Assembly (NCBI GenBank): GCA_905160935.1
Contig: CAJHZI010000741.1
Span: 987,001 to 1,051,000, forward strand
Length of the DNA stretch: 64,000 nt
Reading direction: 5' to 3'
Source of the DNA: Enchytraeus crypticus
Lineage: Eukaryota; Annelida; Clitellata; Enchytraeida; Enchytraeidae
Below, one piece after another: positions 10,201 to 54,849 of the stretch. The notes beneath the pieces were generated by a model. It had not been told where the DNA came from and did not search any database. It saw nothing but the letters and a program-made list of their open reading frames with translations. The number at the start of each line of letters is the position of its first letter. Position 1 is the first letter of the stretch. The position numbers were made by a program, and so were the translations under genes.

Positions 10201-13200
10201 TTACTATTGAACTCTTTCTGTAAAGTAGTCTCGAAGACTGAGTTCACGCCACGACACTGCTATATAAGTTTTCGTTGTTAAAAATAATAATAATAATAAT
10301 AATAATAACAATAATAATAATAATAATGAGTCCTTAGTGGTCACACTCTAATTAGAGCTTTGCATAAATAAAATAATAAATTTTCAAGTACAAACTATAA
10401 CTATAACTATGTCTATTCACAGTCAATGTCTTCAATTTGAGTTCACATAGACACCACGTTATAAGTGAAAATTCTTATCAATTTCAACTACAACCAATCA
10501 CTGTTTTTTATGGTAGCTTTTCAGTAATAAATTTTAAAAAATTATAAAAAACATAAATTACTTTTCTTTTACAAATGTCAAATACATTTTCCTGAAGTGA
10601 GCACCACTCATATTTTAATAAATTATTTAATATATTATACTATTCATTTATTATTATATTATATATATTATTTAATTATTCAATATTTAAAAAATTATAT
10701 AAATATTTCTTTATTACATATCAATTACTGTACATGTATATTACACGACATTAATAACTAGGGAATCTTAAATTTGACGAGTTAAATAATAAAAAAAATT
10801 ATTTGTAAGTATCACATTACTTTATTATTAGTTTAGTTTCAGGAGCCTGAAACTAAACAGAAATAGATTTCAACACATGGAGTACACGGAGAGAAATAAA
10901 CTATAAATATCTCTTTAGTCAGAGGGACTTGCACTTTAGTTTCTAGAGAAAAGAACTGTTAGGCATACTAGAAAGTGTAAATTTAAATGTATAATTTACA
11001 ATAGGAATTATGCAGTATAAATTTCTATTTAGCTGCAGAAAGATGTGACGTACTAGAGCCGGCCAAGGTCTGTGGTTAGGCCAGAGTTTGCCCAGATACC
11101 AGTCACTCTGATTCTCTACCAAACCAAATGCCTGCAAATTAACATAACCAATGCAACAGTTAATCAATTCAAAATAAAGATGCAAAAGCTACTGACTAAA
11201 TTTATAAAGCACAAAAATATATTTTTAAATTAGTCTTCAAATAATTAATAGTCTAATAAATTACTTAATTATAAAATTACGAGACCTAATTAATTTGTCA
11301 GTAAACCATTATCCAATTTCAGTAAAAACAAAATTTCAGCTTGCATTTGAACTTCTAAATTTATTTTAAAAATTTGTCAATGAATTGGTAAAACTAGCTA
11401 TTTAACAAATTCAACACGAAAGTCATCATAAGTTCATTCACATCCCATAAACTTTGATACATTTAAAAAATGTTACATTGGCTGAGCCTGTAGCAGTTCG
11501 GTAAGTTGCCCGACTGTGGATCAGTAAGTGCAAGGTTCAAAGCCAGTGCTCTCCAGGTCACAGATATAATTTCGTGTAGAAAATTGACGCTCACGTCTTT
11601 CATTAAAGCACTAGGTGTAGCGAGACATAATATGATCCAGGTCACCCACAGAGATCTCTTAGTTAAATGTTGTCTTGTGCAGTATAGATATATTTTATAT
11701 TATATTTCAATTACTCTTTCTGCTATACTGTTGAGGTTTGAGTATGGGCGGTTACGCCTGAATTAAATTAATCTATAATTAAAAAAGAAAATGATTAATG
11801 CAATACAGGATGATATTCTCGAACACATTTTCTACAGGGCGATCCTTGGCAATCACGATATTTCAATGAGGCTCTGACAATGAAGAGTTAAACAAAGAAT
11901 CAAACAATCAATAAGAATTTAACGTCCGGTTCCTCGCCATAAGGCAATGTCAGCGACGTCTCTTGCAGACTCTACACAAATAGGCGCCAAAGCACCACAC
12001 GATGACGACTGAGTACACAGAGACCACAAGAGAAAACGAGATCAAAACAGAGCAAGTCCAAGATCCAAACATTTAAAGTATTGAATTTTTTATTTCATTC
12101 AACCTGCTGTGCAGAAAATTTTCTAAACAGTTTCCATAATTCCCCGATATCAGTTGCAAACACCGTGTCTGTGTCCAGCACTATGACCTACAGTAAACAA
12201 CATGTGAAATGTAATATAGTACAACAAAATAGAGCTAAATAAAATACAATATAAAACTATACATTGCTATGATAATAAAATACAATATAAAACTATACAT
12301 TGCTATGATAATATGAGTCAGAAGTGAACACAAAGGGTGCAAAGGAAAGACAGCAAAGATTGCATCATAGTAGAAAAGGAAAACAATAGGAAAATTTATT
12401 TGAAAAGATTATAAAATTAACCAAATCATCAAATATACCAAATGACTAGACCAGGCTAGTTGAATGATGGCTAATAAATGCTAGGAGGATTAATAGAAAG
12501 ATTAGATTTAAAGGTTGATAAATTTGTGGGTAATTTGTCCATACTTGTTGGAATACTGATCGATCAACGGCAAAATGAGAAGACGATTCGACAGAATCTA
12601 TAACTTTGAGAGATGTGAAAGGCAATCAAACCTTGCTGAGTTGATTGGACAGAGTGCTTGGCAGCAGTAGCTTCATCAGCCCGTACACACCGCTATAATG
12701 CTTGTTAGGAATCCACGATACCTCTGCCTAGTCACACATCATAGTCATATGACTATTATTTACACACGTAACAAGCATGATACCTCCGCCTAGTCACAAA
12801 GACTATTACTTATACACGTAACAAGATTCAAGATACTGAGTCAAGTCATACATTACATTCGTAGAGTATATTCATTGTAAACTCATAACTACATTAGCAT
12901 AAACTATGGCGTTATGCCAGATGGTCATTAGGTTCCTCTTGAATCTGCCAGGTATTTAAGTGCTTTATATAAAGTACAATGGAACTTGTATTTTTTATTC
13001 AATACACAAAATAAGTTTGATTAATTGATATTATTTATTAATTTGATTAATAATGTACATTGTTTGCTTATTTTAAAACTTGTTTCTAAATCTTTCTATC
13101 TGCATTTATGTATATACATGGATATATGTTCTATATACATGGATTGCATAGACAGTTAAAAATTGCCAGAATGATTCTTGGCAGACTTAGCACTTACCTT

Positions 13201-16200
13201 TAGTGAGTCGGCATCGTAAAATGTCACTGAAACTAAACACAAAAAAATTAATTATCAGAACTAGAGTAGATTGTTGATGGAAGGGAAAGGAACATTGGTG
13301 AATGACGCAAGATTTTTTGGCTCGTATGGTCACACATGTCGTACCGTAGGCATTAAATAGTTTTCTAACGTAGTTTTAGTTTTTTTAGTTGTCTATATTT
13401 CCTCCTAACATTCCACGGTTATTAGTAATCTTTGCCTTTGCCTTTTCGATGGTGCATCAATTGTAGCCAGCATGGATTCAAGAATAACCTTCCAACAACT
13501 CGAGGCTTTATTCATTCAAAGCCGTGAATAAGGTCTTTCAAACTGGACACCCATCAAAGTACTACCTAGGTAAAACATGACGTTAAATAATTTCACATAA
13601 GAATTTCAGCCATAGTGGACAGCCACATATATGAGCCATTAATAATATTTCTTGTATTAAAATTAGAGACAACCAAAAAATACTCAGCCACAAAGCAATA
13701 TCAGAGATTAAACTATAAGAAAGAAGTAAATACTCAGAAAAATGTTAAGAGAATAAGTTGGCAATGATAAACCGATCCTTTATCAGAAGCATTTCATAAG
13801 AAGAAAGCTTGAGTGGTTAGCTGTAGTACTTACAGCTTAGTAGTGACACGAAACCTGACCCATATTTTGTCATGGATGATAATGGCACTCTAATTGCGTT
13901 GTTGTTGTCAGATGTTAAATAAATGATGCAAAGCAAGAGATCAAAGATGCTACCATTGTTACTTTATCAGGGAGTTGAAATAAAGTAACACTGAGCATTC
14001 AACAATTACTTTAAGAAAATCCTATAATTAGCTATACAACTCTACAAAATTCCTAATTGTATTAGTAAATCAATAATTATAACGAGCATTTTTATCTATT
14101 TCTATCTACCTTTATAACTATCCTGAGTAGGTTCAGGAAAATTGAAAATTGAACCTACCGATAATTAAGCACATTCGTAAGAGGCGACTGATGCAGATAA
14201 GACAGTGAAGAGGCTTGTACCCACATGGTGAAGATTTCAGTGTTTTACACCAATTGATTGCTCATACTCCAGGCTTGCAGAGTTCTAGTCGCTACACCGA
14301 TTGTGGCACTATACCACCAAACTACTTGACCTTCACTGTCCATTTAGCTCTATTATGGCATTTAGCATAGAGCAACACTTAAAAAATATACTTATTGCTA
14401 ATTATTATTATTATTCTTATCCATATATCAATCTATTTATCTATTTTGTATATATCATTATTTATTATCTCTATCTCGCTCTTAGTGCATTGCCTATCAA
14501 CAGGTCCATGGCACAATTATTTTAAATTATTTACTACACGCAATGTTTATTACAAATCCTAATTCTACGCAATGTGTCACAGTAGTGGTTGATTTCTATT
14601 CAGCAAAGCAAACCTTCCGGAATCATCCACGTGGAGAACACAGTCTCCAGGATGGCTCTGGCGATGGCGTCGGAGATAAAATGAAGATGAAGACGATTTC
14701 TACGATAGAACAGAATGCTCTTCATCAGTGTTATCACCTCTCTTGTTGAGTTGTACCTCGTGCACACCATAGATATGTGTATCACCTAGGTGACAACAAC
14801 AACAACAACTGAAGAGGTTATCACCTATGTGTCAACAACAACAACATCAACTAATTATGTTTTCACCTGAGAGTCAACAGCAACAACATCAACTGAAGAG
14901 GTTATCACCTGGGAGTCAACAGAAACATCAACTAAGAGGTATATGCACAGGAAATGATTAGCCCTTAACCTAAATTCATTCTTGTCAGTTAATTCATACT
15001 ACTACTATAGAGTAGATCAAAAAAATCTGTGAACAACATGAGTTGCAAACGGCGACCAAACAAGAACCTGAGAAAGGCAATAGAAAGCCATCCTCAAAAC
15101 ATATTTCCTAAGGTTAATGCTATGTTAAGATTTGGTTAAGGCTTAACCTTGGCAGTTGGTTAATTTTCTTGGTCAAGGGAGTGCATTTACTGAGCTTGAA
15201 AGCAGTCTCTGTAAGTATCTTGGACCTGCCAATTGGCAGAAAACGAAAGAGAGAGACTCTTATCAAATTTGTGACTATAAAAAGTATGCATGTCAATTAA
15301 GATATATAATGCAGCACTACTAGACCTAAAAATATGAAAGTAGCTGCGACAATTGAACATTACGCTGGTATTATATTTTATCATAAAACACTCACTCTTA
15401 AACAATAATTATTGTGTTTCGCAAAACTGCAGAATCATTCATCAGTATAACTATTGTGACTACAAAATACTTTCTTGTACATAAATTAGTGCATCGTAAT
15501 AAGTTTGACAGTAAGCTAACATCGTCAATATAGTTAGGAGATGTTAGAAAAGTCAAAGAGACACTAATATCTGGTTAAAACACAAAATCAATCTCATATT
15601 TATAAAGAACTTCACTCATAACCAAGAAATTTAACGTAGAAGAACATTACAAGCTTACAAGCATGCATACAAGAATGTCTTAATAGCGTAGGGGTAACGT
15701 CATGATGTTTTAAATGACAGATCCTAAGCTGAATTGAACCATCGTGGATTCGAATCCCAGCCACGCTGATCTGAGAGTACAATCTCAGACATTCACTAAA
15801 CTGGCTATAAGAAAAATGGTCTAAATTGTCTAATGGTTTAAACATGCGGTATTAAAAAGTGATAGATATCAACATGGTTGATCATTGCACTATAATGCGT
15901 GTTTACTTCTTTTACATGCATGCCCATTCTACAGACCTCACACTTTGGCAGATCAGGTTCCTTAATGCATTCTTGTTCCGAGACACTGAAACCAGTTTCA
16001 GCTCTCTTCTCTCCATTGTTACCATCCTCAGAAACACTCTTACCATTTTCTGATAATATCCTACACAGCAGCAAAACATTAGGCCTACATTGTAAACTAC
16101 ATTAGCATATATCTAATAAAAATGCATGAAAGTACTACTATAAAGCAATCAAATTAATTTAATATTAAAAAATTAAAAAATTCTTAAAAAGTTTTGATTC

Positions 16201-18389: not shown

Positions 18390-18427
18390 CTTAATACTAG
18401 AATGACTCTAGTCATTCTAGTATTAAG
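18390..18427. repeat. Perfect 38-bp palindrome
   Basis: Arms CTTAATACTAGAATGAC and its reverse complement, loop TCTA. Confidence 0.92.
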
Positions 18428-18811: not shown

Positions 18812-18955
18812 TCCCGACTTTGGACTGAATTTCTGGATTTTGGAATTTGCTCTGTTTTTGGACCTTCTTTTTTGCTCGCCGGCTTGATTTTGTCTCAATA
18901 GTGCTCGATGTTGTCATTGATGACAGTAGCACTCTAATTGCTGTTATTAATTGTT
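18812..18955 (+). repeat. Dispersed 140-bp repeat (family X)
   Basis: GATTTTGGAATTTGC ... TTGCTCGCCGGCTTG ... AGTGCTCGATGTTGTCATTG ... GCACTCTAATTG. Other plus-strand copies at 29432-29560, 45763-45885 and, partial, about 36425-36505. No coding signal or terminal repeats seen. Confidence 0.75.
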
Positions 18956-21298: not shown

Positions 21299-22365
21299 AT
21301 CTACCGGAAGTGCCTATCAGTTGTGGTCTTTTTCAATTTATTAGCCTAATAACGGCACAACTAACTGCAAAGCGTCATAATAACTGCAAAAACAATGCTG
21401 GGGTCACTAGAGACCCCACCGTAAGTAATGATGGTTCTTTTCAACTCCACCTATCTCCGTAAATATTTACACAAATAATATAAACTGCCTAATATAGAAA
21501 CAGGAACTCATAACTAAAATAATCATGGTCGGGCAGCTCATGGAAGTCAGTGGAAAAATAAAGCAAAAAATATATAATCGAACACCTGCGTGGGGTCGCT
21601 AGAGACCCCACCGTACTTAGAAGGTTAAAGCATTAAACATATGAAGTAAATTATTTAATAGATCATATGATTTTGTGACTCCATGCTACCGCACAGTTTT
21701 ACGTGAAAGATGTATAGCAGTCAGTGGCCCAAAAATTTGGAACAACATTACAGATGGCATAAAATCCCTTAATTCATTGCTGAATTTATAAATAAACTAT
21801 GAGATTCTATGGTTTTGCAATATTAATTATGTAATCAAACCGGTTTAGAAGATGTAATTTTCTTCTGTTCTAGTTATAAATATGAACCCCTGCTGCGTTA
21901 AAAATTATCTATGTTATATTAGTAAATTTTGAAAAGACACCGCTGATTACATGCGTACGAATGCTAATTAGAATTGTTCAAACATTTGTATTACATTACA
22001 TGAACTATCTTGTGTAATTTCAACAGAGTTATTTAAACTTCTTGCTGTGATTGTTTCTTTTTTAGATTAGTTTGAATTATTTGTTTGAAGACGTCTAAAT
22101 CGAACGTCTTAAATTCGCTATTCAATTATTTAGGATTTGTAGTTTCATGGCTTTTTGGCTTTTTGACCTCTATGTGTTTAGTCAATAATTAGCTTTCAAC
22201 GAAAGCAGACTCTGAGTATAAATATGTACCTAGAGCCTACCACTTGGAAGAAAACGAGAGAGTGAGCTATCTATAGAATATTTATCAAATATATATTTAG
22301 ATCTATATAAATTTCATATACGAGCAAAATACCAACCGACCCTCCACATCGAACATCTAAATTTT

Positions 22366-24294: not shown

Positions 24295-24418
24295 CACCTA
24301 TACTCAATGTGAAGCATGCAATGTGAAGCATGCAATGTGAGGCATGCAATGTGAAGCATGCAATGTGAAGCATGCAATATGACGCATGCAATGTGAAGCA
24401 CGCAATGTGAAGCATTGT
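24295..24418. repeat. 14-bp minisatellite at the EIF2B1 stop codon
   Basis: About 9 units of GCATGCAATGTGAA. The array ends within a few nt of the EIF2B1 stop (24422-24420), so it occupies the start of the 3' UTR. Confidence 0.9.
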
Positions 24419-24419
24419 C

Positions 24420-27400
24420 CTATGTAATCAGTTGAATGAGCTGATCGCAGACAGCAGATGGCGTGAGTATACCGAGATCAGTCAGGAGTAGAGTGATATA
24501 GGAGGGTGGCGTGTAGTCCACCATTGGATGTTCCTCCCTCAGATCACTGTGGCTCAGCTTAGAGGCTGCGTACTAACAACAACCATAACAACAAAATAGA
24601 TTTAATAAGAGCTGAGGAACTGATGTCAGGAGCCTCACAATGTCACTTAATTGACTAAATTAACAAAAGTTAATTAACTAAATCAATAGATCTCTTACTT
24701 TCTCCCAAAAAGTACTTTAATATGCCTAAGTCGATTTGTATCAATACATCAAAAAACTCAAAATATTAAAACAACAATATCAGTATTATTTCAACCAACC
24801 ATTAAATTGTTATATTATATTGTATTGTAATCGGTATTGTATTGTGTATGGTATTGTGTGGCTAGACATAGAGCAAACAGGCAAAGAGCAAACAGGCCAG
24901 AGAAACAGGAGCCATAACAAATATTATGTCATTTATCAATTATATTAATAATATTAACAAGCAGTTTGTTTTCTCTCATTCTCGTACTACAGTATGCTCA
25001 AATCCTTTGCGGTACACATAAAAGCTCAGTACTGCTGTGGTCTTCATTTCATTCAGAGGTATTTAAGCTTGCACTCAAAATTCGTTCAATAGATTTGCAT
25101 ACAGCATTAAAACACGCATTATAGTGAAATGATCAACTATGTTGATATCTATCACTTTTTAATACCACATGTTTAAACCGTTAGGCAATTTATTCCATTT
25201 TCCGTGTAACCAGTCCAGTGAATGTCCGAGATTTTACTCTCAGATCAGCGCGGCCGGGATTCGAACCCACGAGAGTTCAATTCACCTCAGGATCTGTCAT
25301 TTAATATTTCAAGACGTTACCCCTACGCTATTAAGACATTCTAGCATAGAGATCATTCTACGCACAACTCCTTGAATTTTAAAATTTATAATTCTCATCA
25401 ATGCGTATGCTCAATTTTGAAAAAATCGCAGCAGCACGTAATTGTTATTCGACGTATTTATAAGTAGCTAGCAAAGTTGCCGTCAATGTTATCGAAATAG
25501 AACATTAAGGACAAACTCGTACCTTAAATTCGTTAGGAACATCTTTTTGATTGAGCGGATAGTTCTTGGCAAACTTGAAGCTCTCGGCTACCACATAGAC
25601 CGGCTTGTGCAGCTCCTTTGCACAGACTGCCATTGTATATGTTCCTATCTGTCAGCGCAACAAAGCAACGGAATTCATCAAATGTATTAAATGAACGGGC
25701 TGGACATGTTATGCGCATAGAAGATAGTAGAAACCCTCGGAAGACATTTAACTATGAAGCAGACGGTAAGAGAACAGCGAGAAGACCTAAAAGAAGATGG
25801 AAGGACTGCCTCGAAGAAGACTTGAAGGCTGCTTGAGTTAGTATTTATGGAAGAACAGAAGGAAGAAAAAGAATGAACATCTAGGAAATGTCAAAGAATA
25901 GAGTTTTGTGGAGGAACATCAAAGAGAAATCTTTGGCAGGAACCAGCCCCAGGATGATCACATGACAGGACATTAAATGAATGTAACAACCCATCAGTAG
26001 AGAACTGAAGAATTAATGAATAAATCAATAAATCAATAAATACATCAATCAATAAATCAAAGAACAAAATAAATTTACTCTACACAAAAAATTCAATAGA
26101 GGCTATTTTCCAAGTTAAAAATCATATTTTTACTAATTAACTGATGGTGTAATTTTAACTGGAGAGAATTATTCATCCTATTTACAAAGGCCTACTAATA
26201 CCCCATTTGTAATGACAACTATGTAATATAGTAATATACATATGTTATTAAAACATAAAGAGTTCTATAAACATGCATTTAGTACAGCTTCTTTTTTCAC
26301 TAACTGTAGAAAAGATGAAGAATAAGAAGCAGGAAAAATTGAAAGAGATCATTTTTATTTGACTTGAACTGAACTGACCTATTTATAAGAACTCCAACTG
26401 GAACAAAGGAGGGAAAAACTAACAAGTTAAAGCTCTTAGTATAAACAAAAGCATTTAAGGCTTTTTCTATCACGAATATTTATTGGAATGATTCAACAGT
26501 CACCACCATCATCAAATTCCCTTTAATCCCAGTTTAACTGGGTCGGGATACGAATGGACCTTCTTCCCTCCTCTTAGTCCCATACCATCAAAATCTCTTC
26601 CATTCGTTTTAGAAAATTTTGTGGAAATTTCTGGAGCCTAGGTGCTCACCAACTGAATGCCCTTCCTGACGTTAGTATGGATCTTAGTGCTTTAGTCCCA
26701 TTCTACGACATGTGCAGTCACCGGTTGGTCAACTCTTCAAACAACCCGGACAGTCGGCGGACACAACACGGGAGCAATGACTCAACAGTAAACCTTATTA
26801 ATGATCCCGCCGCTTGCCATCACACCCTCGGCACCAACTAGAACCATATCAACCTTCTCCATTATATATCTGCAACAACATGAGAACAACAACAACATGA
26901 TATACCTACAACAACGACATGAGAACAACAACAACATCACACCCTCAGCACCAACTAGAACCATATCAACCTTCTCCATTATATACCAGCAACAACATGA
27001 GAACAACAACAAGATATACCTACAACAACAACAAGAGAAAAACAACAACATCACACCCTCAGCACCCACTAGAACCATATTAACCTTCTCCATTACATAC
27101 CTGCAACAAGTAAAAGCTGATAAAGCTAAGGTTAACGTCAGTTTCCTCACTCGAAAGCGATGTCAGTGACGGGCGAGCCCAGCATTTGAACCCGTATCAA
27201 CTGATCCGCGGTCGAGTATCTTACCGACTTCGCCACTGGCTCCAGCCAGTAAGCATTCATTAAGCAAGCACTATAGTGAAATGATCAATTACGTTGATAT
27301 CTATCACTTTTAATACCACATGTTAAATCCGTTAGGCAATTTAGTCCATTTGCCGTATAACCAGTCCTGTGAATGTCCAAGATTTTACTCTCAGATCAAT

Positions 27401-30400
27401 TGTTATAATAAACAACATGTAAGAGAACACGTTTAGTTGTGAAATACAAAAACATTAATTCGTCTTTAATCGCAATCAATCAAACCATTCGTAATCTCAA
27501 TTGAATAAAATAAATGTTTTTAGTAAAAGCAGTGAAGAGTAAATTTTTAAGCATATCAAACCGACCATTAGGATTAGTAGGATTTCACAAGATCTAAAAT
27601 TTCAATTAATTATTGCTACGGTTTAAGAAATTTATGATGAACATACTATCTGATCTAAATAATTGTACTAGACGCCTGAATTTAACATCTATTCTAAACC
27701 ATTTTTACAAGTCTACTTATTTGGAAAGCTCCATTTAAATGGGATTGATAGCAATTAAATAACTATCTGTTTAACATATGATAAGCAAACAAACTGCTTC
27801 AGAAAAGCTTCAGTTAGTAATACTAATAATAATAATAATAATAATAAATGTTTAACGTCCGTTTCCTCATCCAAGGATGATATCTGGGACGTCATTACAG
27901 TAGATAGAATATGAGTACAAGAAAAGTTCGTTTTCTTTGTAGAAAAACCCAAAGAATCGTGCCACTTGTCTTGCACTGTCACATTTATATAACTGGTGAA
28001 TCCAACACAAATATTTAAATGATTTTTAGAACTACTAGTGTTTAGATTTCAACTCTGGGAATATAAACATGAGAAAATTTGAGGAGCTAAAATTGTGCAT
28101 GGAGATGGCAGAATATTTCCATTTTGTATCTGTATTGAGCTTGATCACTACAAAATGTAAATAAGAAAACTGAGTGCAGAGCACAATGCTACAGAGGAAA
28201 CTGACAAAAAATCCAGAGTTTTTATGATTGTCAGTTCACAAAATGATTTTTAGGTAATGGGTTATAAAATATTTTTACAGCTCGGTGATAAACTATAGCA
28301 TGCTTTGCAGCTAACATCTCAGTAGCTCGAGTGTGCCGAGTCATCTAAGAGAACAGCTTCAGAAAATTTTTGTTAATCATACCGAAATAACACGTAACAT
28401 CTAATCTACCACGTAATATCTAAGCTGCCACATAATATCCACATCACGTAACACTAAGCAATATCACATAATATCTGCAACATAAGACAAATGAACGTCG
28501 ACAACAGAGCAAGCTGACCAACGTCATGTTCAATGTTTCCAATTTCTTCACTAAACATGTTAAACTATCTATATCACTTTTAGACCTAAACCTAAGCTTA
28601 CCCAACAGAAGAATCTAGAATAAGTATGGCAGGTATGCCAGCAGCTTTCAAATCTTTCACCATCTCACACCTGCACATAACAAACAAATAATGATACTCG
28701 GTTTAGCTGCACGTCAATTGAACGAAGTTTAGCTAAATCAGGTTCGGTTAGTAGATAATTGGGTGACAACCTTGGCAGACTGAGTATTAACAGCTTTGAA
28801 TGAAAAATAAACCTAGGGTGTGGGAAGGTTATTCTTAAATCTGCACTGGCTGCAACTGAAGGGCCATCAAAAGACAACGGCTACTAATAACCATGGACAG
28901 GAATGAAGAAATAACAAAAACAGAAATGAAACTCTGCAGTACATGCGGTTGTCATGTGGGCAACCATACGAAAGTTGCATTAATTCTTATTCTGCTTAAA
29001 TCATCGGAAACTCCATTACCATAAAGCCAGAGCCAAGTTTATCGTCAGTTTCTTGCTCGATAGCATCTCAGAAACGAAGATAGCTCTGGATTTGAGCAAT
29101 GCACAACTAATATCATAGCCAAAATTTTTCAGAATTCCAGTGTTGAGTTATACTAGATCACCAAAACAATACTTCATAGCCAAACATACATATGCATATC
29201 TGAGAATGTTTGACAAAAGAAAAGTAGTCTAGCTCACCACAGGCCACTACAGGCCTAGCATTGCAGGCCTAGAAATGAAGGACTAACCCATCATAGGCCT
29301 TACAGATACAGCCAGAACAATTCACAAATTTTGACCAACTCACAAATGCTATTTTAATTTTATTTAAAATTAAAATACTTCTTGCCAGCTATGAATAATA
29401 ATTAATAATAATAATTAATAGTAATTCCCCTTACTTTGGACTGATTATCTGGATTTTGGAATTTGCACCATTTTTGAACATTCTTTATGCTCGCCGGCTT
29501 GATTTTGTCTCAATAGTGCTCGATGTTGTCATTGATGACCATAGCACTCTAATTGTTATGTTATGTTATGACTCATATAAGCAACAACAACAATTTCTGA
29601 ATCTAATAATAGATTAGTTAATTCTTTGTTTAGGTAGCTCCACTTGCAGAACAGATTCACTGCTGTACTGAAAAATTATTATTGACTTACTGTGATGTAC
29701 TTAAGTACATATTAACACATTGTTAACTTGATTTACGCAGGTTATCTGGTCTTGATCTATAGCTAAACTCTTTGCTTGAGCTATTCTTTTCTACTGACGA
29801 GTTATATGGTCTTAATTAATTAATAAACTGTTCGACTGATAGCTGATTGATTGATTTACCCTGAGTTATATGGTCTTAATTAATTAATAAACTGTTCGAC
29901 TGATAGCTGATTGATTGATTTACCCTGAGTTCTATGGTCTTAATTAATTAATAAACTGTTCGCTGATCTACCCTGGTCTTAATTAATTAATAAACTGTTC
30001 GACTGATAGCTGATTGATTGATTTACCCTGAGTTATATGGTCTTAATTAATTAATAAACTGTTCGACTGATAGCTGATTGATTGATTTACCCTGAGTTAT
30101 ATGGTCTTAATTAATTAATAAACTGTTCGACTGATAGCTGATTGATTGATTTACCCTGAGTTATATGGTCTTAATTAATAAATAGACTGTTCGACTGATA
30201 GCTGATTGATTGATTTACCCTGAGTTATATGGTCTTAATTAATTAATAAACTGTTCGACTGATAGCTGATTGATTGATTTACCCTGAGTTATATGGTCTT
30301 AATTAATTAATAAACTGTTCGACTGATAGCTGATTGATTGATTTACCCTGAGTTATATGGTCTTGATTTATTAATGAACTGTTCAACTGATAGCCGATTG

Positions 30401-33400
30401 ATTGATTTACCCTGAGTTATATGGTCTTGATTTACCCTGAGTTATAATGTCTTGATTTATTGATTTACCCTGATATGGTCTGTTCAACTGATAGCTGATT
30501 GATTGATTTACCCTGAGTTATATGGTCTTGATTTATTAATGAACTGTTCAACTGATAGCTGATTGATTGATTTACCCTGAGTTATATGGTCTTGATTTAT
30601 TAATGAACTGTTCGACTGATAGCTGATTGATTGATTTACCCTGAGTTATATGGTCTTGATTTATTAATGAACTGTTCGACTGATAGCTGATTGATTGATT
30701 TACCCTGAGTTATATGGTCTTGATTTATTAATGAACTGTTCAACTGATAGCTGATTGATTGATTTACCCTGAGTTATATGGTCTTGATTTATTAATGAAC
30801 TGTTCAACTGATAGCTGATTGATTGATTTACCCTGAGTTATATGGTCTTGATTTATTAATGAACTGTTCGACTGATAGCTGATTGATTGATTTACCCTGA
30901 GTTATATGGTCTTGATTTATTAATGAACTGTTCGACTGATAGCTGATTGATTGATTTACCCTGAGTTATATGGTCTTGATTTATTAATAAACTGTTCGAC
31001 TGATAGCTGATTGATTGATTTACCCTGAGTTATATGGTCTTGATTATAATGAACTGTTCGACTGATAGCTGATTGATTGATTTACCCTGAGTTATATGGT
31101 CTTGATTTATTAATGAACTGTTCGACTGATAGCTGATTGATTGATTTACCCTGAGTTATATGGTCTTGATTTATTAATGAACTGTTCGACTGATAGCTGA
31201 TTGATTGATTTACCCTGAGTTATATGGTCTTGATTTATTAATGAACTGTTCAACTGATAGCTGATTGATTGATTTACCCTGAGTTATATGGTCTTGATTT
31301 ATTAATGATCTGTTCGACTGATAGCTGATTGATTGATTTACCCTGAGTTATATGGTCTTGATTTATTAATGAACTGTTCAACTGATAGCCGATTGATTGA
31401 TTTACCCTGAGTTATATGGTCTTGATTTATTAATGAACTGTTCAACTGATAGCTGATTGATTGATTTACCCTGAGTTATATGGTCTTGATTTATTAATGA
31501 TCTGTTCGACTGATAGCTGATTGATTGATTTACCCTGAGTTATATGGTCTTGATTTATTAATGAACTGTTCAACTGATAGCTGATTGATTGATTTACCCT
31601 GAGTTATATGGTCTTGATTTATTAATGAACTGTTCGACTGATAGCTGATTGATTGATTTACCCTGAGTTAAGGTCTAATTAATTACTAAAAACTGTTCGA
31701 GGGATAGTGATGATTGATTACCCGAGTCTTATGTCTAATAATTAATAAACTGGTCGAATGATAGGATGATGGTGATTACCCTGAGTAGATGGTCTTAATT
31801 AATAAAAACTGTTCGAACGATAGCTGATGATTGTATTACCAGAGTTATATGGTCTCGACTGAGAGCTGATTGATTGTTTTAGGGTCTTGATTATTAAAAA
31901 CTGTTCGACGATTTACTGAGTTATAGCTGAATTGATTGATTTTACCCTTGATTATTAATGAACTTCAACTGTAGCTGTGATTGATTACCCTGAGTTATAT
32001 GGTCTTGAATTATTAATGAACTGTTCGACTGATAGCTGATTGATTGATTTACCCTGAGTTATATGGTCTTGATTTATTAATGAACTGTTCAACTGTTAGC
32101 TGATTGATTGATTTACCCTGAGTTATATGGTCTTGATTTATTAATGAACTGTTCGACTGATAGCTGATTGATTGATTTACCCTGAGTTATATGGTCTTGA
32201 TTTATTAATGAACTGTTCGACTGATAGCTGATGGATTGATTTACCCTGAGTTATATGGTCTTGATTTATTAATGAACTGTTCGACTGATAGCTGATTGAT
32301 TGATTTACCCTGAGTTATATGGTCTTGATTTATTAATGAACTGTTCGACTGATAGCTGATTGATTGATTTACCCCGAGTTATCTGGTCTAGATTCGGTCA
32401 CGTAGACAGTGAAGCGTTTCTGTTGAGCTTGGGCTTCCTTCAATAAATGTAGCACTACTCTCGACTTTGAATGCGTTAGAATTGTCTGAACAATACAACA
32501 AAATCATTGTCAAATATTAAATGTATGGTTTAGTTTAAACAATGGAAGGGATTTTCTTTTGATCTATGGAGTGCTTTATATGAAGCGTGAGAGTAGACTG
32601 AGTATGAAAACGTACCTCGGACTTGCCAATTTGCAGAACACTAGACAGAAACATTCATTAAAGCTAGGGGATTTCTGGAGTGAAAAGTTCTGCATTATCA
32701 CCCAGAACACGAAGCTAATTTAATTAAACACTAATTACAACAGTTTTGATTGCATACTTGCCTTGTCAACAAAAGTGACATACTAATTTTTAGTGAATAA
32801 ACCTTATAGATCAATAGAGCTTTAAGATTATACTTACAACCTATAGACTGATTGATTGATTAAATTAGAAAGCATACAATTTCAAATATAAGAATCAGAG
32901 TCTCACCGTTCCATTTTGAACGAAAGGGTGTCCGACTTTTACTATTTTTCCACGAGACATGCTGGCTTTCTGTACGAAGAGCTCTCCTCTCCTTATCAGC
33001 CTCTCCTTCAATAGACTCCACTCCTGCATGAGTGGCGGACCAACACAACAACAACAACCATATAACATTTGGTTACTACAAGTATTCGACTGCTGCACAG
33101 GCTAACAACAACAACAATACAACATTTGAATACTACAAGTATTGGACTGTGGCAGGGGCTAACAACAACAACAATACAACATTTGGTTACTACAAATATT
33201 GGACTGTTGCAGGAGCTAACAACAACAACCATACAACATTTGGTTACTACAAATATTGGACTGTTGCAGGAGCTAACAACAACAACCATACAACATTTGG
33301 TTACTACAAGTATTGTACTGTGGCAGGGGCTAACAACAACAACAACAACAACAATCATACAACAGTTAAGTACTACAAGTTATGAATAGATACATTTCAA

Positions 33401-35103
33401 CAGAGCAGCCCAGTCGTCCAGAGAGCATTTACCTAGCACACATATTGTTTTTAGTTCAGGCTGTCAATGAATAAAAATATAATTAAAACCTATTGAATAA
33501 AATAAGTGAAAACCCTAAATCATAATATCTTGTATTTTAGAATAGAAGCCTCCTAAATGCATATAAACTTAATCGTAGTTAAATATTACATATCAAAATA
33601 TTGAACTATCAACACAAAGCGGTAGAGACAAAATATAATAAAGTTAAACTTAATGAACATATCGTACTCGCCAAAATCAATAAGTGTTAACTAATCTGCA
33701 ATTGAGCAGCAGCATAGTTCAAAATAAATAATATATAAAATACAATTCTCAAGAGCACATCTAACATAACATCTGATTTGATAGACCAGTACTTGATAAA
33801 CAAGTACTTGATAGACCAGTACTTGATAGACCAGTACTTGATAGACCAGTACTTGATAGACCAGTACTTGATAGACCAGTATGTGATAGACCAGTACTTG
33901 ATAGACCAGTACTTGATAGACCAGTACTTGATAGACCAGTACTTGATAGACCAGTACTAGATCAACATCTGATTTGATAGACAAGTACTTACCAGATCAA
34001 CAACATCTGATTTGAGAGACAAATACTTAGCAGATCTTCAACATCTGATTTGAGAGACAAGTACTTACCAGATCATTAACATCTGATTTGATAGACAAGT
34101 ACTTAGCAGATCAACAACATCTGATTTGAGAGACAAGTACTTACCAGATCATCAACATCTGATTTGATAGACAAGTACTTACCAGATCATCAACAGATTT
34201 GATAGACTAGTACTCACGAGATCATCGAGGTTGCAGAGCGTAATGAATCTGATGAAGAGATCGCAGCCTGTGCGTATTGACGTTATCAAACCCTCGTGGT
34301 CTGTCTCCAGCAGCCATTTAATCGCATTATTCACCTCCGCCCTCAACCCCAAAATCGTCTCAGCTAAAATATTATTACACGTTATGATCAAAGAAATTAT
34401 TAGCCAATCAATGATAAATAAGGAAATGATCAAAGAAAGTATTAGGTAATCACTTCAATCAATGATAAACGAGAAAATGATAAAAACATAAAGTAATATT
34501 TATCTCTCTCTATTCAGTGCACTACCAAATGGAAGGTTCAAGGTACATACTCATACTCAAAGTCTGCTTTCTAGCTCTGTATGAGCACTCCTTAGATCAA
34601 CAAGTTAATCCCTTCACAAAGTCCATGCCTTATCCCTATTATCGATGTAATATAGAACCCATTAAAGCCAACATAATTTAAGAGACCAAAGAATAAAACA
34701 CCAGTTATTTTCTTGGTGAAATGTTTCAGTGGCAATTCCCTCATAACCAAAATTAATCTGAGAAAGCCAAACCTTCCTAGCCAGTCTCAAAGTGATGCAC
34801 CCGATTCTGTGGATTCAATCAATTTTCACACAAAGACAGATTGGTCTTTGAGAGCCGGTAGATAATGATCAATTACATCTTCAAGAAAAGCAAACAGAGC
34901 TGACCTTTACTGTGTCGCAGACATTCTATCAGCGTCTTGATGGCTACAATGGCTTCAGACACACTCTGATCATTCCTGTGGGTTGTGGTGTAGTAAGCCA
35001 GTATCTCTACACACAGCGTGCAATATATCTATACCAGTGTCTCTATCTATATATATACACATATATCTATAGAATACATTAGAAATAATAGCATAGTATG
35101 TAG

Positions 35104-45699: not shown

Positions 45700-48600
45700 A
45701 TCTTTCGTGGCAGGGTCGCAAATACGATATAATACCTATTCTGCTTGCAATTATTAATTACATTGGACTGACTTCTAGATTTTGGAATTTGCACCGTTTT
45801 TGGACCTTCTTTTTGCTCGCTGACTTGATTTTGTCTCGATAGTGCTCGATGGTGTCATTGATGACTACAGCACTCTAATTGTTGTTATTGTTATTAGCAT
45901 TAATATCCTGAACATTTGCATTACTTTATTACTGCTAGCGTTGCTGCTCTTCATATTCTGTATTACTCCTTTTATACTGATTTATGATTAGACCCAATTA
46001 TATTGATGATTTATGATTACTTATACAATTTTTATGATGTCTGATTTCAGCGAGGAACTATGATGTTGATAAAGCTGAAGAAATGCTGAGAAATGTAAGT
46101 TGTCGAAAGATTGCAATTTAAATATTTCTGATATGAAATCAATGAGATCATAACTTACAAAATAATACAGTAGTCCCTACCACTATTTGTGTATCTCTAT
46201 CACTCTGAAGCAATCCTACTCAACAGTACTTAGTAGTGTAATAGGTTTTGTTTGCAATACATTCTCGAGCAGACTTTTAATAGTTTTTATTAATCGTTTT
46301 GCCGCTCAGAACTTAGGCTCTATTATGGTAGCCACTTTTATATTGCTTGTTTGTTTATCTAATTACTATATAGCAATATCTCTCTCTCTTCAGTGCACTG
46401 CCAAGTGGCAGGTTCAAGGTACATATTCATACTCAAAGTCAGTTTTCTCGCTCCATAAGAGCACTCCTTAGATTAACAAGTTAGTCCCTTCACAAAGTCT
46501 ATGCCTTATCCATACCTTATGTAGCCTATAGCTTGGGAAAAAATATAGCAATATATAAACTGTAAAATAAAACTGTATGCCGAGAGATAAATAAATTATG
46601 ACTCATCCAAAAACACTCTATCACTATCAATATCTCAGATATGATATTAGATTTGCGATTTTTAAGTTCCTTGCTATCTATATTGTCTTCGTGCTGAGAT
46701 ATTTATGTGAATCCGTGTTGGTTTCATAGTACTCGATGTTGTCTCGGATTGCTGTAGACTGTAGTCGTGTTTTGCACAGCACATGGCGTGGCGCAAGCAG
46801 GTGGGTGCGGATGATATCCTTAATTGGGAGGCTCCGGAGGTAATCAAGAAATATTTTCCAGGAGGGTGGAGTGGAGGCTATGACAAGCTTGGTAGACCTG
46901 TCTGGATAGAGCCCAATGGCAGGGCCGATATGAAAGGTTTCTCTCATTTACTTGTCGGTTTTCTGCTAAATGGTAAAGTAAAAGCTGGTAACGCCAAGGT
47001 TAATGTCAGTTTCCTCACTCGAAAGCGATGTCAGTGACGAGCGAGCCCAGGATTTGAACCCCGCACATACTGATCCGCGGTCGAGAATCTTACCGACGTC
47101 GCCACTGGCTCTAGCCAAAATATGGCAGGTCCTAGCTACATATGTCTACTTAAAAATCTTCTTTCAGGCGCTGTACGAGACAATACGTTGACCCTCGGGT
47201 TGATCCCGTACAATGGTTAAGACTTTACTAAACATTTAATGCCGTTGTCGTGAGAATATTAAAGTTTTGTCTACCATTATTTAAATAAGCTAATTAGAGT
47301 TTTGCAGAATGTGTTTACAATTGAGATTATGCTTAGTATTGGCCGTATGTTAAGCATAGGCCTATGTATATAGTGATAGTAAGTCAAGTTTATAACTCTT
47401 TTATTCTCTAAGTTAATTAAATGAAAAAATAATTTCATGTGTTGAATATGGAGGATTTGCGAATTGTCAAATCTAAAATTGTTTTGATGAACAGCACCGT
47501 TAGGTCACTTCAGTGGTTACTATTTACAAAGATACTAATTTATGTGTGATAAGCGTCAGTATAGATCTCTGATAATCTCTGATAAGATCAGCATATTATT
47601 ATAGTCAACCATATGTCCTCTTTATAAATCAGATGAAAATTTACTCTGATTTGTATATATTTTAGACTCGTATATAGTCCTAATCGTTTTATTGATCAGT
47701 TGTGGTCGAAGATCTATTACTATATTGGCTCACTTATTGATCGGCTAGATTGATTGATTGATTGATTGACTACTATATTGCTGGATTAATTGAGTGCTTG
47801 TTTGATTGATTAGGCTTAATGCTGTCAGCTAAGAAGAGTGATTTGCTAAAGTACAAGATTTATCATTGTGAGCTTATTCAGAAACAAATCCGAGAGCAGA
47901 GGGATAAGGTATCTAATAAAAAAATCTTCATATAACCTCATGTAATATCATTTGCATGTAAATATAATCGTGTAACTTAATTAATTATTTTGAAATGTGA
48001 TATGTGAGTTATGTTATTTCGGTTCAAATCAGAGAATGAAGCATTTTTTATGTTGTCAATTTTGGAAATTTAGTATAATATCGTATTAACATTTTAAACC
48101 TAAAATGGCTAATGCCTAGTTTAACCTAGTTTGTTGCCTACTGAGAGTAGCAGTGGCGAGTTTGAACTTTGAGCCATATGTCTGATCCATAGGCGGACAA
48201 GTAACCGATATACCACCGGTTCAGCCCTTTAAGACACTTTTACATACTACGACAAAGACGATGTTCTATAGCGATGATTACAGTTATACATACTATGAGT
48301 GTAATACAGTGATATAGCGATGATTACAGTTCTACATACTACGAGTGTAATACAGTAATATAGCGATGATTATATTTCAGCTGAATAAGCACATTGACGG
48401 GATTGTGATCATCGTGGATGTGGAAGGGTTGGGCATGAAACATTTGTGGAAACCCGGTTAGTTGAATAAATTGTACTTAATTTTCTCCTTATATTAGTAA
48501 CTACAATCTTTCAATTTGAAAATAAGATTTGTTTTGAAAAAGCGCATTGGAGTGTCTATAAATCTCGTATTTTTGGTTCGAACTCATTCAAAGATCTTCA

Positions 48601-51252
48601 CACAATTTCATTAAAACAGATTTAATTGTTTAGTACAGACGTCGAATCGGTTTTCTAGAATTTAACCCACTTACTTTGTGTCTCTTAATATGTTTATAGT
48701 CAAGTTTAAAATCAACTTTTTTCTCTTGACAAGTTGCAATGAAATGGAACAGTTTTTAAATTATAACTGATTGTAAGTAGTTGTGCGAAGGGCAGCAATT
48801 TATTCAGTGAGAATCAAATAAGCTATGGTGAGGTAAATCGATCTGTGTATTATGTCCTACAGGATCTATTTCCTTTCTAGTTGATCAGTCAGTGATCTAT
48901 GTCCTATCATATAGGGTCTATTCCCGGGCTAGTTGATCAATCAGTGAGCTATGTCCTATCACACAGGATCTATTCCCGGGCTATTTGATCAATCAGTGAG
49001 CTATGTCCTATCTTATAGGATCTATTCCCGGGCTATTTGATCAATCAGTGAGCTATGTCCTATCTTATAGGATCTATTCCCGGGCTATTTGATCAATCAG
49101 TGAGCTATGTCCTATCTTATAGAATCTATTCCCGGGCTATTTGATCAATCAGTGAGCTATGTCCTATCTTATAGGATCTATTCCCGGGCTATTTGATCAA
49201 TCAGTGAGCTATGTCCTATCTTATAGGATCTATTCCCGGGCTATTTGATCTAGGATTAAAATTTTAGTCATATCCTGAATTGACAATTGGATTATCGACT
49301 AGGTACACTTCCTTTTAATATGTAGTATTGAAAATGCTAGAGATTGTCATGGATGATTTGTTTATTTTAGTGACTGTTTAATCTTTAACCTTCAATGTTT
49401 GATCTACTCATTACACTATCTGCAAGAATTATATGTTGATGTTTGATTGTTGTAGGGCTGGATTATTATGAAGACGTAATGAAGATTTTTGAAGCTCATT
49501 ATCCTGAAACACTTAAAACAGCATATGTTGTTAACTGTAGGTATTTTAAGCGTGTATTAATTTAATTATTAAACGGAATTAATTTTTGATAATTTATGTA
49601 GAAAAATAGAAATACAAATGGTAAGCTTATAGTGTATATTATATAATATAATGTAAGTTAATTATACTCTGCAAGCTTAACGCTATAATTTGCTTAAGTT
49701 AGTCATCGTCATAATCAGCTTCCTTCGAATCCTAGTTTATCTAGAGTCGGAATATTAAACTTTTCCATTTGTTGTAGAAAATTTTGTAACATTTTCTGGA
49801 GCCTAGGGGTTCACCATCCGAATGCCCTTTCTGACATTAGTTTGGATCTTAGTGCCTTGTCGCCTTTAACGACTCGTGCAGTCCACGATTGGTCTATTTT
49901 GCAGCAACCCGGAAACAACATGGTATGCTAAGTTAGTTGTATTGTAGAAAGATGAAGACAACTTCATTATTTTTATTATTCTTCATGATATGGTCATATA
50001 AGATATGATCTGTTTATAAATAAAGCAAATGCACTGTGAGGCATCTTACCCTGAATCTGACGTTAGATATTCGTATCAATCTGATGTTAGATATTCATGC
50101 AGTCATTTTGTTTTTGTTCTGCGACTGCGTTGCTTTGTTACGTATATCTGCTTCGCAATTTAATTTGTCCACATTAAATTTGATTCTATTAAAAGTTTCA
50201 AATACTTGGAAGAATAGTACTGAGAGCTAGTGCGGACTGGCGCAGGAAGTCTTCCATAAATAGAGGCATGACGTACATCTAACATTTAAATTACGTAATC
50301 CGGATATTTAACAGACTAGTCCATTATCTCTGTGGCTTCACAGTGGCACTAAGTTGAATGTCTCCATAGCGCAATGGTTAGAGGTGTAGATAACGTCATG
50401 AAGTTTAAATGACAGACCCTAAGGTGAATTTAACTCTCGTGCGTTCGATTCCCGGCCGCGCTGATCAGAGAGTAAACTCTCGGGCATTCACTGGACTGGC
50501 TACACGGAAAATGGACAAAATTGCGTAACGGATTTAACATGTGACATTAAAGTGATAGACGTCAACTTAGTTGATCGTTTCACTATAATGTGTGTTATTA
50601 TTATTATTTTATAAGTTATCGTTTTGTTGTTATTCAGCCATTCCTATCTTTCCTCGTTGTGTTGTTATGCAGCCATTCCTCTCTTTCCTCGTTGTGTTGT
50701 TATGCAGCCATTCCTCTCTTTCCTCGTTCTGTTGTTATTCAGCCATTCCTCTCTTTCCTCGTTCTGTTGTTATGCAGCCATTCCTATCTTTCCTCTTTTT
50801 GTTATTATGCAGCCTCTCCTCTCTTTCCTCGTCGTGTTGTTATGCAGCCATTCCTCTCCTTCCTCCTTTTGTTGTTATGCAGCCATTCCTCTCTTTCCTC
50901 CTTTTGTTGTTGTGCAGCCATTCCTCTCTTTCCTCGTTTTGTTGTTATGCAGCCATTCCTCTTTTTCCTCGTTTTGTTGTTATGCAGCCATTCCTCTCTT
51001 TCCTCGATTTGTTGTTATGCAGCCATTCCTCTCTTTCCCATTGCTTTCAACCTGATGAAGAGATTCTTCAGCGAGGAGACGCGGCAGAAGATTTTTGTGC
51101 TGGGTGGAAACTGGAAGCAGACTCTGCTCAAATACATAGACTCTGATCAACTGCCTGTCCACTGGGGAGGAAACAGAGTCGATCCTGTGGATGAAAACGA
51201 CTACTGCACCTCTTTTGTAATTGTTATATCTTTTCGCTTTCGTTACTTGTTA

Positions 51253-51300
<48 letters not shown>

Positions 51301-53428: not shown

Positions 53429-53506
<78 letters not shown>

Positions 53507-54849
53507 TAGGGTCTCTACGTGTATCAGCGTTGTATTTTAATTGAGTGCGTATTGAATGGTTTTATTATAAGGTGGTCTGTGTGGTTTCCTCTTAAACACA
53601 AGGGCATCTTCGCCATAATCAGTTATCAATAGTTGACGCAGTTTGCGTCAAGAAATTCTCCAGTGGTACCTGGAAAGTAAATTTAGGGGAGTACTGTACA
53701 ATCTTACTGTACCCAACTAAGTTGTGTTTTGCATCATAAACCAAAGGGGAGAAGACGCCCCTGATTAACTTAAACATATTGAACAGGGTCGACATGAATT
53801 ACAGAATTAAATTTGAGACGTCCCTGACATTGCCCTATGGCGAGGGACCGGAAGATAAATTCTTATTTATTGATTGATTGATTGAATTAGAATTAACAGG
53901 TTTTCTCTGCGTTATCTCCAAAGCCTTGCTGTGTAACATAGACTGTACTCATCTTCACAAACCTCGAATGTGTCATAAACAAACACTCGAATAAAATGTT
54001 CTCATAACATGATGTGCTAATATTTCGTCAATCGAATTATATCTAAATTTCTATGCATTTAACAGTTTTCCATTTAATTACCTGAGGTAGTAACTGATAT
54101 TGTCTATTGCGGTTCCTTAGAAATCATCTAAAGAAAATTCAATCTGAAATCTATATGCATGCCAGTGATATAGGAAATGAATAAAACGTGTTGAGGAAAC
54201 TGTATCACCTCGTCCAATCATAGCCGACTTAATCTTCAAACTGGCTTTCTAGCATCTCTAAGATAAAAAGCTAAGCTAATGTTAACGTCAGTTTCCTCAC
54301 TCGAAAGCGATGTCAGTGACGGTGGATCCCAGGATGTGAACCCGCAGATACTGGTCCGCGGTCTAATATTTTACTGACATCGCCACTCGCTCCAGCTAGT
54401 GAAGAACTTATTAACTCTGCATTACCTAAAACTAGCCTGTATCTTTCATAAAACGTATCGCTAAATTATTTAATACATAATATTTATTTAAATTATTTAA
54501 TATGTACAAATCTGTGATATTTTTACTCTACTGCAGACACGGTCACATTTGAAAACACGTAATACCTAATCTGTGTTAATTTTACTCTACTGCAGACACG
54601 GTCACATTCGACAACACGTACAGTTGGACTAAGAGTAAGAAGCTTCTCTATCAGGTGGAGCTGCTGCCTGGTCTGACGGGTGGGCAGCGATTGACGGGTG
54701 GGCAGCGATTGACTGCAGAGGACGAGACCTTGAAAGATAAATCCGTCAGGAGGCTCGATAGTGTCCTGGACGAGGCTGCTGGCGTTGCCACTCCGTCCAA
54801 CAACGTCGATGACAAAGACTCTGAAAGTGGCAACTCGACAACTTTTTAA
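43768..54849 (+). CDS. SEC14L: SEC14-like protein, CRAL-TRIO plus GOLD, complete, 11 exons
   Basis: Cytosolic lipid-binding protein of the SEC14L2/3/4 type (supernatant protein factor), which binds squalene, tocopherol or phospholipid and may act in trafficking. Exons: 43768-43812, 45302-45371, 46051-46094, 46780-46936, 47814-47908, 48381-48456, 49456-49536, 51023-51216, 51986-52125, 53169-53329, 54596-54849. All GT/AG, phases agree, 1317 nt gives 438 aa. Order: CRAL-TRIO N-terminal helices ([23 protein letters not shown]), lipid pocket ([76 protein letters not shown]), then GOLD ([36 protein letters not shown]). Human SEC14L2 is 403 aa. The extra C-terminal tail is acidic and has a duplicated LTGGQR from an 18-bp tandem duplication (about 54674-54710). 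Which paralogue cannot be told. Confidence 0.94.
44435..44700 (-). mobile_element. SINE-like element (family D)
   Basis: Begins on the plus strand with (TC)n, then the family D body reversed, ending near GGTTGCCTTCCTCAG. SEC14L intron 1. Confidence 0.65.
46375..46545 (-). mobile_element. SINE-like element (family D)
   Basis: Plus strand reads TCTCTCTTCAGTGCACTGCC then AAGTGGCAGGTTCAAGGTAC. This is one of the best-preserved copies, in SEC14L intron 3. Confidence 0.75.
46972..47115 (-). mobile_element. tRNA-derived SINE (family A)
   Basis: Reverse complement carries GGTTCAAATCC and the TGACATCGCTTTCGAGTGAG tail. It begins 36 nt after the SEC14L exon 4 donor. Confidence 0.8.
48237..48380 (+). 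repeat. About 47-bp minisatellite ending at the SEC14L exon 6 acceptor
   Basis: Three units with TATAGCGATGATTACAGTTC and TACATACTACGAGTGTAATA. The last unit runs into the real acceptor as TAGCGATGATTATATTTCAG. Earlier units have GATGATTACAG there, i.e. an AG without a good pyrimidine tract. Confidence 0.75.
48845..49255. repeat. 52-bp minisatellite in SEC14L intron 6
   Basis: Eight units of ATCTATTCCCGGGCTATTTG then ATCAATCAGTGAGCTATGTC and CTATCTTATAGG. Very homogeneous in the right part, and about 400 nt from exon 6, so not junctional. Confidence 0.95.
50350..50590 (+). mobile_element. tRNA-derived SINE (family B)
   Basis: ATAGCGCAATGGTTAGAGG (A box) and GTTCGATTCCCGGC (B box) give the best tRNA-like head of this family. 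The 3' part matches 15655-15895. SEC14L intron 7. Confidence 0.85.
50634..51040 (+). repeat. 35-bp minisatellite copying the SEC14L exon 8 acceptor, 12 units
   Basis: The unit is TTGTTGTTATGCAG/CCATTCCTCTCTTTCCTCG. The real acceptor is the last copy (AG at 51021-51022), where the exon continues CCATTCCTCTCTTTCCC into ATTGCTTTC. AG positions of the copies end at 50637, then every 35 nt from 50672 to 50987, giving 11 decoys with the same pyrimidine tract and 15-18 nt of exon. The array has no stop in any of the three frames, and 35 is not a multiple of 3, so the frame changes with each decoy and returns every third unit. Confidence 0.95.
51605..51672 (+). pseudogene. Possible decayed copy of SEC14L exon 9 start
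   Basis: AATGTGTGTAGTTTTCTA followed by AGAGATGATG, CCTGAGTGTTACATACGCA and ACGAAGATG parallels the exon 9 acceptor region (51975-52035: AATGTGTTTGTAGTTTTCTA, GGAGGTGACG, CCTAAGTATTATATTCA, ACGAGGACG). It is in intron 8, 373 nt upstream, with indels that break the frame. Confidence 0.45.
52855..53100 (-). mobile_element. Non-LTR retrotransposon tail (family 1)
   Basis: Minus-strand frames give [20 protein letters not shown] and [20 protein letters not shown]. Ends in the CTGCCTACTGGCAG hairpin and GA-rich tail. SEC14L intron 9, about 70 nt before exon 10. Confidence 0.8.
53431..53504. repeat. (TA)n microsatellite in SEC14L intron 10
   Basis: Uninterrupted AT repeat of about 74 nt, about 100 nt after the exon 10 donor. 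Confidence 0.95.
54268..54402 (-). mobile_element. tRNA-derived SINE (family A)
   Basis: Reversed copy with GATGTGAACCC in place of the B box, so degenerate. SEC14L intron 10. Confidence 0.75.
54512..54630 (+). repeat. Tandem copy of the SEC14L exon 11 acceptor
   Basis: Two 59-bp units. The upstream copy reads TTTTACTCTACTGCAG/ACACGGTCACATTTGAAAAC then ACGTAA (AG at 54535-54536). The real one reads TTTTACTCTACTGCAG/ACACGGTCACATTCGACAAC then ACGTACAG (AG at 54594-54595). The duplication includes the whole acceptor and about 28 nt of exon. In the exon frame the decoy copy hits TAA. Confidence 0.95.

Follow-up and report, generated by a model that had tools for sequence, protein, structure and literature searches.

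Results

Genes and junction-spanning arrays

Our analysis concerns a stretch of 64,000 nucleotides (nt) from Enchytraeus crypticus (contig CAJHZI010000741.1, positions 987,001 to 1,051,000), referred to below as the window, in which minisatellite arrays repeatedly include splice junctions of the genes LARGE, EIF2B1 and a SEC14L2-like gene. The guanine-plus-cytosine (GC) content of the window is 34.4%, with 48% in exons and 33% in introns; the published E. crypticus genome has 35.4% GC (PMC8460440). Exons were placed by hand and translated, yielding 66 splice junctions in total. LARGE was modelled with 18 exons in a single clean reading frame, EIF2B1 with 8 exons, again in a clean frame, and the SEC14L2-like gene with 9 exons (exon 9 acceptor at 51986); the latter two models leave out exons upstream of those listed. 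In comparisons with the PDB the EIF2B1 product matches eIF2B alpha (6caj_H, E = 1e-97, query 1-298, 298 residues), the SEC14L2-like product matches SEC14-like protein 2 (1o6u, E = 3.5e-93) and the LARGE product matches LARGE1 (7zvj, E = 5e-49) over 119 residues. The remainder of LARGE we take to be correctly modelled, judging by its clean frame and by the human sequence.

Tandem Repeats Finder (TRF) returned 103 rows for the window, which were merged into 41 non-microsatellite arrays. Arrays account for 21% of the intron sequence and for 8% of the sequence outside genes, and many of them are located far from any junction. At seven of the 66 junctions the splice site belongs to a local tandem repeat and sits in its copy next to the exon, and each of the seven arrays extends into the intron:

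29799..32394, minus strand: EIF2B1 exon 5 donor array, 64-nt unit, 39 probe matches (TRF and probe); exon 32373-32485 contributes its final 22 nt, with the true donor, to the outermost copy
33961..34226, minus strand: EIF2B1 exon 3 donor array, 38-nt unit, 7.1 copies, with 9 nt of exon 34218-34363 (TRF)
26818..27109, minus strand: EIF2B1 exon 7 acceptor array, 114-117-nt unit, 2.5 copies, with 52 nt of exon 26794-26869 (TRF)
50619..51038, plus strand: SEC14L2-like exon 8 acceptor array, 35-nt unit, 12 copies, with 16 nt of exon 51023-51216 (TRF)
54509..54620, plus strand: SEC14L2-like exon 11 acceptor duplication, 59-nt unit, 1.9 copies, with 25 nt of exon 54596-54849 (TRF)
12714..12838, minus strand: LARGE exon 6 acceptor duplication, 62-nt unit, 2 copies, with about 14 nt of exon 12632-12727 (ends placed by eye)
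14793..14940, minus strand: LARGE exon 4 acceptor array, 42-nt unit, 3.6 copies, ending 7 nt from exon 14614-14785 (weak case)

Five intronic arrays thus overlap coding sequence at the junction by 9, 22, 52, 16 and 25 nt according to TRF. The LARGE exon 6 pair is missing from the TRF list and plain by probe. The LARGE exon 4 acceptor is the single weak case beside six clear ones: its array has only about 6-8 nt in common with the exon by eye, and it is flagged at probe thresholds of 18-20 of 24 and not at 21. Protein homology is gapless across the true junction in six of the seven cases in the PDB alignments, while the seventh junction, the LARGE exon 4 acceptor, sits where the aligned stretch starts.

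A first-pass annotation of the window had described arrays that include the splice site and the adjoining exon, at donors and acceptors alike and always reaching into the intron. This description is borne out here by TRF and by the probes, and the arrangement recurs on two other contigs (see below). The annotation had counted seven clear cases among about 70 junctions; the number agrees with ours, with LARGE exon 4 downgraded. Unit lengths, given as 35 to 115 nt, were measured at 35, 38, 42, 59, 62, 64 and 114-117 nt, and the approximately 41 copies proposed for EIF2B1 exon 5 compare with the 39 probe matches. Two weaker SEC14L cases had also been named, and these part company: the exon 9 acceptor scores at lower thresholds, whereas the exon 6 array abuts the exon at a distance of 8 nt and does not span the junction.

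As a separate observation, an 18-nt unit is tandemly duplicated (2.2 copies) at 54674-54713; the duplication is confined to coding sequence of the final SEC14L2-like exon and leaves the frame intact.

Junction-spanning repeats in independent genes

A search of the assembly (524,188,772 bases, 802 contigs) with PF01008, made before the loci were viewed, gave three genes besides the EIF2B1 of the window. By resemblance to human sequences these are putatively EIF2B4-like, EIF2B2-like and MRI1-like. The three genes lie partly outside the fetched loci, and 19 junctions were scored by the same probe rule. The EIF2B4-like gene (L002) has an acceptor array at 1117-1539 with 9 copies of a 47-nt unit, in each of which an acceptor-like region is joined to 22 nt of exon sequence. 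In the EIF2B2-like gene (C332) about 40 nt of exon together with the donor are repeated twice in a degenerate form (39/50 and 34/50 identical). The MRI1-like gene (C385) contains an array of 21 copies of an 18-nt unit beginning at a donor, with GTATGT occurring 10 times in 420 nt; as it has only 1-3 nt in common with the exon, it was excluded from the spanning count. Two of the 19 junctions are spanned, compared with 0.39-0.53 expected (P = 0.06-0.10). Taken together with the window this amounts to 9/85 junctions, with spanning repeats in five of six genes and on three contigs, and a donor-edge array on a fourth.

Comparison with chance

To judge these counts we used as control the frequency with which a position in an intron interior falls in the first or last copy of an array, scored with 24-nt probes at 26,552 positions. 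This is a fair control because a junction can occupy only the exon-side terminal copy. Array coverage of introns was rejected as a null for the same reason, and terminal-copy and unit-placement nulls were used in its place. The interior terminal-copy rate is 1.8-3.3%. At thresholds of 18, 19, 20 and 21 of 24, respectively, 8, 8, 8 and 6 of the 66 junctions occupy the terminal copy next to the exon, compared with 1.84, 1.65, 1.50 and 1.37 expected from the intron interiors (binomial P = 0.0005, 0.0002, 0.0001 and 0.0025). The SEC14L exon 9 acceptor supplies the eighth match found when the threshold is lower.

In a permissive placement null the outer unit of an array was allowed to reach into the exon, and three array classes were considered. 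Spanning arrays number 5/26 with 1.5 expected (P = 0.014), 4/14 with 1.2 expected (P = 0.024) and 4/9 with 0.86 expected (P = 0.007). For arrays that span a junction or lie within 12 nt of one, the corresponding values are 9/26 versus 2.4 (P = 0.0002), 7/14 versus 1.7 (P = 0.0005) and 5/9 versus 1.1 (P = 0.002). A placement null confined to introns, with 0.4-0.9 expected within 12 nt and 7-9 observed, is too strict and was not relied on. All these P values are optimistic, because the window was picked for its repeats, neighbouring positions are non-independent and the interior rate is largely set by a small number of long arrays; for the first of these reasons they cannot carry a genome-wide claim. 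The excess at junctions is suggestive.

Decoy splice sites and similarity of copies

Most copies inside the arrays retain the splice dinucleotide and thus present decoy sites. Among probe matches it is kept in 5/6 copies at EIF2B1 exon 3, 37/39 (GT) at EIF2B1 exon 5, 4/5 at EIF2B1 exon 7, 12/12 (AG) at SEC14L exon 8, 2/2 at SEC14L exon 11, 2/2 at LARGE exon 6, 3/4 at LARGE exon 4 and 8/9 in the EIF2B4-like gene. In total, 65 decoys in these eight arrays carry the dinucleotide, and splicing at 42 of them would cause a frame shift. At EIF2B1 exon 3 the true donor reads CTC|GTGAGT (34218) and several decoys read CTG|GTAAGT, which fits the usual donor consensus better than the true site does.

Two arrays stand apart with respect to frame. 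At EIF2B1 exon 7 a 126-amino-acid open frame (26782-27162, minus strand) traverses the whole acceptor array, and the upstream AGs would lengthen the exon in frame by 36, 150 or 231 nt, all three being multiples of three. At LARGE exon 4 both decoys would likewise add a multiple of three (2/2). For the remaining six arrays the proportion is about that of chance (1/4, 12/36, 3/11, 0/1, 0/1 and 2/7).

By inspection, the decoys of both EIF2B1 donor arrays have differences from the true copy in common and resemble each other more than they resemble it. At SEC14L exon 8 and in the EIF2B4-like gene no such distinction between true copy and decoys is apparent, also by inspection.

Arrays at stop codons and beside exons

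Arrays are also found at coding edges that have no splice signal. Two of them adjoin stop codons in the window, and two further arrays abut exons:

934..1310, minus strand: LARGE stop-codon array, 14-nt unit, 24.8 copies, overlapping the last 6 coding nt including the stop; no splice site is located there (TRF)
24305..24415, minus strand: EIF2B1 stop-codon array, 14-nt unit, 7.9 copies, starting 4 nt after the stop (TRF)
48267..48372, plus strand: 46-nt unit, 2.3 copies, separated by 8 nt from the acceptor of SEC14L2-like exon 6 (48381-48456), which it precedes; non-spanning (TRF)
7682..7916, minus strand: 20-nt unit, 11.8 copies, starting 11 nt into the intron after LARGE exon 7928-8092 and adjoining the donor (TRF)

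The LARGE stop codon lies within the outermost unit of its array. In the EIF2B4-like gene the stop is about 7 nt from an array (L002, 2236-2276), and the stop-adjoining arrays of LARGE, EIF2B1 and the EIF2B4-like gene have 14- to 20-nt units. The stops of SEC14L and the MRI1-like gene have no array within 200 nt. Arrays thus overlap or abut three of the five stop codons in view, a small number, the EIF2B2-like stop lying outside the view. Since stop codons are affected too, what these sites have in common may be a coding edge and not a splice signal, and arrays may associate with coding edges in general, splice sites and stops alike.

Discussion

Relation to known systems

The arrays described here resemble the 'mirages' of lancelets. 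Two papers (PMC3087553, PMC3902484) describe these as tandem repeats of minisatellite type with a unit that extends across an exon-intron boundary, which may be 5' or 3', so that the view of the first-pass annotation that there is no described system of this kind does not stand. Mirages were reported in Adh3 and in the globin genes BflGb6 and BflGb9 (PMC3087553); TnC was added later, and PGBD5 was likened to them (PMC3902484). According to the same papers AG or GT is present in many, not all, copies and regular splicing is reportedly undisturbed (PMC3087553, PMC3902484), with unit lengths of 10-72 nt in Adh3, 150-160 nt in the globins (PMC3087553) and 60 and 108 nt in PGBD5 (PMC3902484).

As in lancelets, the E. 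crypticus units span exon-intron boundaries (six clear cases and one weak in the window, one each in two further genes), and both boundary types are involved, namely donors at EIF2B1 exons 3 and 5 and in the EIF2B2-like gene, and acceptors at EIF2B1 exon 7, SEC14L exons 8 and 11, LARGE exon 6 and in the EIF2B4-like gene. The units fall within the range reported for mirages, only that of EIF2B1 exon 7 (114-117 nt) exceeding 72 nt, and AG or GT is likewise kept in many, not all, copies. The mirage trait of homogenised copies from which the boundary copy is excluded is seen, by inspection only, in both EIF2B1 donor arrays and not in those of SEC14L exon 8 and the EIF2B4-like gene. In contrast to the lancelet cases the host is an annelid and not a chordate, 9/85 junctions in six genes are involved, and arrays also occur at stop codons.

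Other parallels exist. Human internal tandem repeats in segmental duplications are of minisatellite size, lie at exon-intron boundaries and alter gene structure; they are found in primate paralogs of recent origin that show alternative splicing as well as novel introns (PMC2812944), whereas the E. crypticus genes are old and conserved and their junctions seem not to have changed. In intron gain through tandem duplication (Rogers, cited in PMC3087553) an AG/GT-bearing segment is likewise duplicated within a gene; in E. crypticus the conserved junction is kept and the extra copies lie inside an existing intron. In an earthworm, also a clitellate annelid, the metallothionein gene contains intronic minisatellites, and one clone has exon 4 copies absent from the transcript; junction spanning is not described in the accessible part of that report (PMC12783039). 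A Plasmodiophora paper returned by the literature search is unrelated. Among the matches listed there was no further description of junction-spanning minisatellites; most subscription papers were outside the scope of the search, and absence from print is not established by it. The arrays are of a known kind, in what seems to be a new place, an annelid. In the literature accessible to us the name 'mirage' was met only for lancelets, and a related effect is described for human paralogs of recent origin.

Origin of the arrays

We consider it probable that these are mirage-type minisatellites, produced by ordinary tandem duplication and then sifted by selection for a functional junction next to the exon; coding edges may, in addition, be truly enriched. 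Segments of about 35-117 base pairs would be duplicated locally, as is common in and around genes here, and the resulting unit would sometimes cross a coding edge. Such a duplication would survive only where the exon-side copy leaves the reading frame joined, and survival of frame-keeping duplications would leave the anatomy that is observed: the true junction in the exon-side terminal copy and the array running outward into non-coding DNA. That the arrays always extend into the intron is thus an outcome that selection would leave under any cause. The array may then grow, and its copies may be made more alike, in part, through unequal exchange or gene conversion. The spliceosome would ignore the decoys, even though GT or AG is present in most of them and the use of most would cause a frame shift. 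The probable reason is that, under exon definition, the two sites closest to the exon are preferred. We would call a modest true excess at coding edges likely but unproven; a conserved and long-lasting template in the terminal copy could account for it.

Several points weigh against this explanation. A purely neutral filter predicts no excess, yet the window lies approximately four- to five-fold above the intron interiors, and the permissive placement null is likewise exceeded. The pattern of homogenised decoys next to a constrained terminal copy is limited to two arrays, and the lack of distinction between true copy and decoys at SEC14L exon 8 and in the EIF2B4-like gene does not fit it. Splicing past the decoys would follow from protein homology and from the analogy with lancelets.

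A fairly unlikely alternative, with which selective filtering is compatible, is that there is no excess: in a genome rich in minisatellites junctions would be crossed about as often as expected, and the window would stand out through having been picked. The coverage of introns and non-gene sequence by arrays agrees with this, as do the spanning counts of the permissive null, at P = 0.007-0.024 before allowing for the choice of window, and the P = 0.06-0.10 of the independent loci. Against this, those genes were not selected for repeats and match the rate of the window (2/19 vs 7/66), and arrays crowd the 12 nt beside exons in addition to spanning junctions (9/26 versus 2.4 expected). Active seeding, in which the GC step from 48% to 33%, stalled replication, R-loops or factors bound to splice sites promote duplication at splice sites or coding edges, could explain the four- to five-fold excess, the similar rate in the three independent genes and the involvement of donors and acceptors, and the GC contrast between exon and intron agrees with it. 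We regard it as quite unlikely, given that stop-codon edges carry arrays too, so that splice signals are seemingly unneeded, that many arrays are remote from junctions and that the window was chosen. The proposal of the first-pass annotation that a genome-wide process seeds repeats at splice sites thus goes beyond the data, in which the excess is moderate and the independent sample small.

It is very unlikely that the decoys are functional and tune splicing or create alternative exons. The open frame through the EIF2B1 exon 7 array, the in-frame decoys there and at LARGE exon 4 and the better-fitting donors at EIF2B1 exon 3 would suit such a role, while the chance-level proportion of multiples of three in the other six arrays speaks against it. 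An artefact of assembly at collapsed or expanded repeats appears extremely unlikely. Arrays can be mis-assembled, and the published assembly combines short with long reads (PMC8460440); on the other hand, copies differ from one another, short two-copy cases exist, and the arrays recur across the contigs named above. The likelihoods we attach to these readings overlap and do not sum to one.

On a broader reading, which we hold to be unlikely, one coding edge in about ten genome-wide would carry an anchored array in this protostome, and coding edges, whether splice sites or stop codons, would act as duplication hot spots, a case of convergence with lancelets. If true, every genome would hold a great many decoy splice sites that are passed over, which would put exon definition to a natural test, and there would be a standing supply of material for new introns. 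Three questions can now be tested in this laboratory soil worm, a species with a published assembly, namely whether coding edges are duplication hot spots, how a choice is made among near-identical splice sites and whether arrays are a source of introns. Decoy junctions could, in addition, mislead gene prediction.

Other repeats and gene fragments

A dispersed element, found by eye, is present at about 6290-6410, 16720-16830, 27110-27250, 46980-47120 and 54260-54400; from a B box resembling that of transfer RNA (tRNA) we presume it to be a short interspersed nuclear element. A second tRNA-like element lies near 15690-15900, 25120-25340 and 50360-50600. Several overlapping frames at 19727-21313 (minus strand) resemble a piggyBac-type transposase. 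Elsewhere in the assembly, the mitochondrial contig C802 (15,205 bases) has a COX1 match with 12 TGA codons and no stop of another type; from its open frames and rRNA matches the probable gene order, all on one strand, is cox1, cox2, cox3, nad6, cob, atp6, nad5, nad4L, nad4, rRNA, nad1, nad3, nad2. This order is of the annelid type and speaks against a sponge or a lancelet as source. The published mitochondrial genome of E. crypticus likewise measures 15,205 bp, and its gene order is almost that of Lumbricus (PMC8460440). Contigs C361, C424, C796, C373 and C166 hold five further COX1-like matches with internal stops by the standard code, which are probably nuclear copies of mitochondrial DNA.

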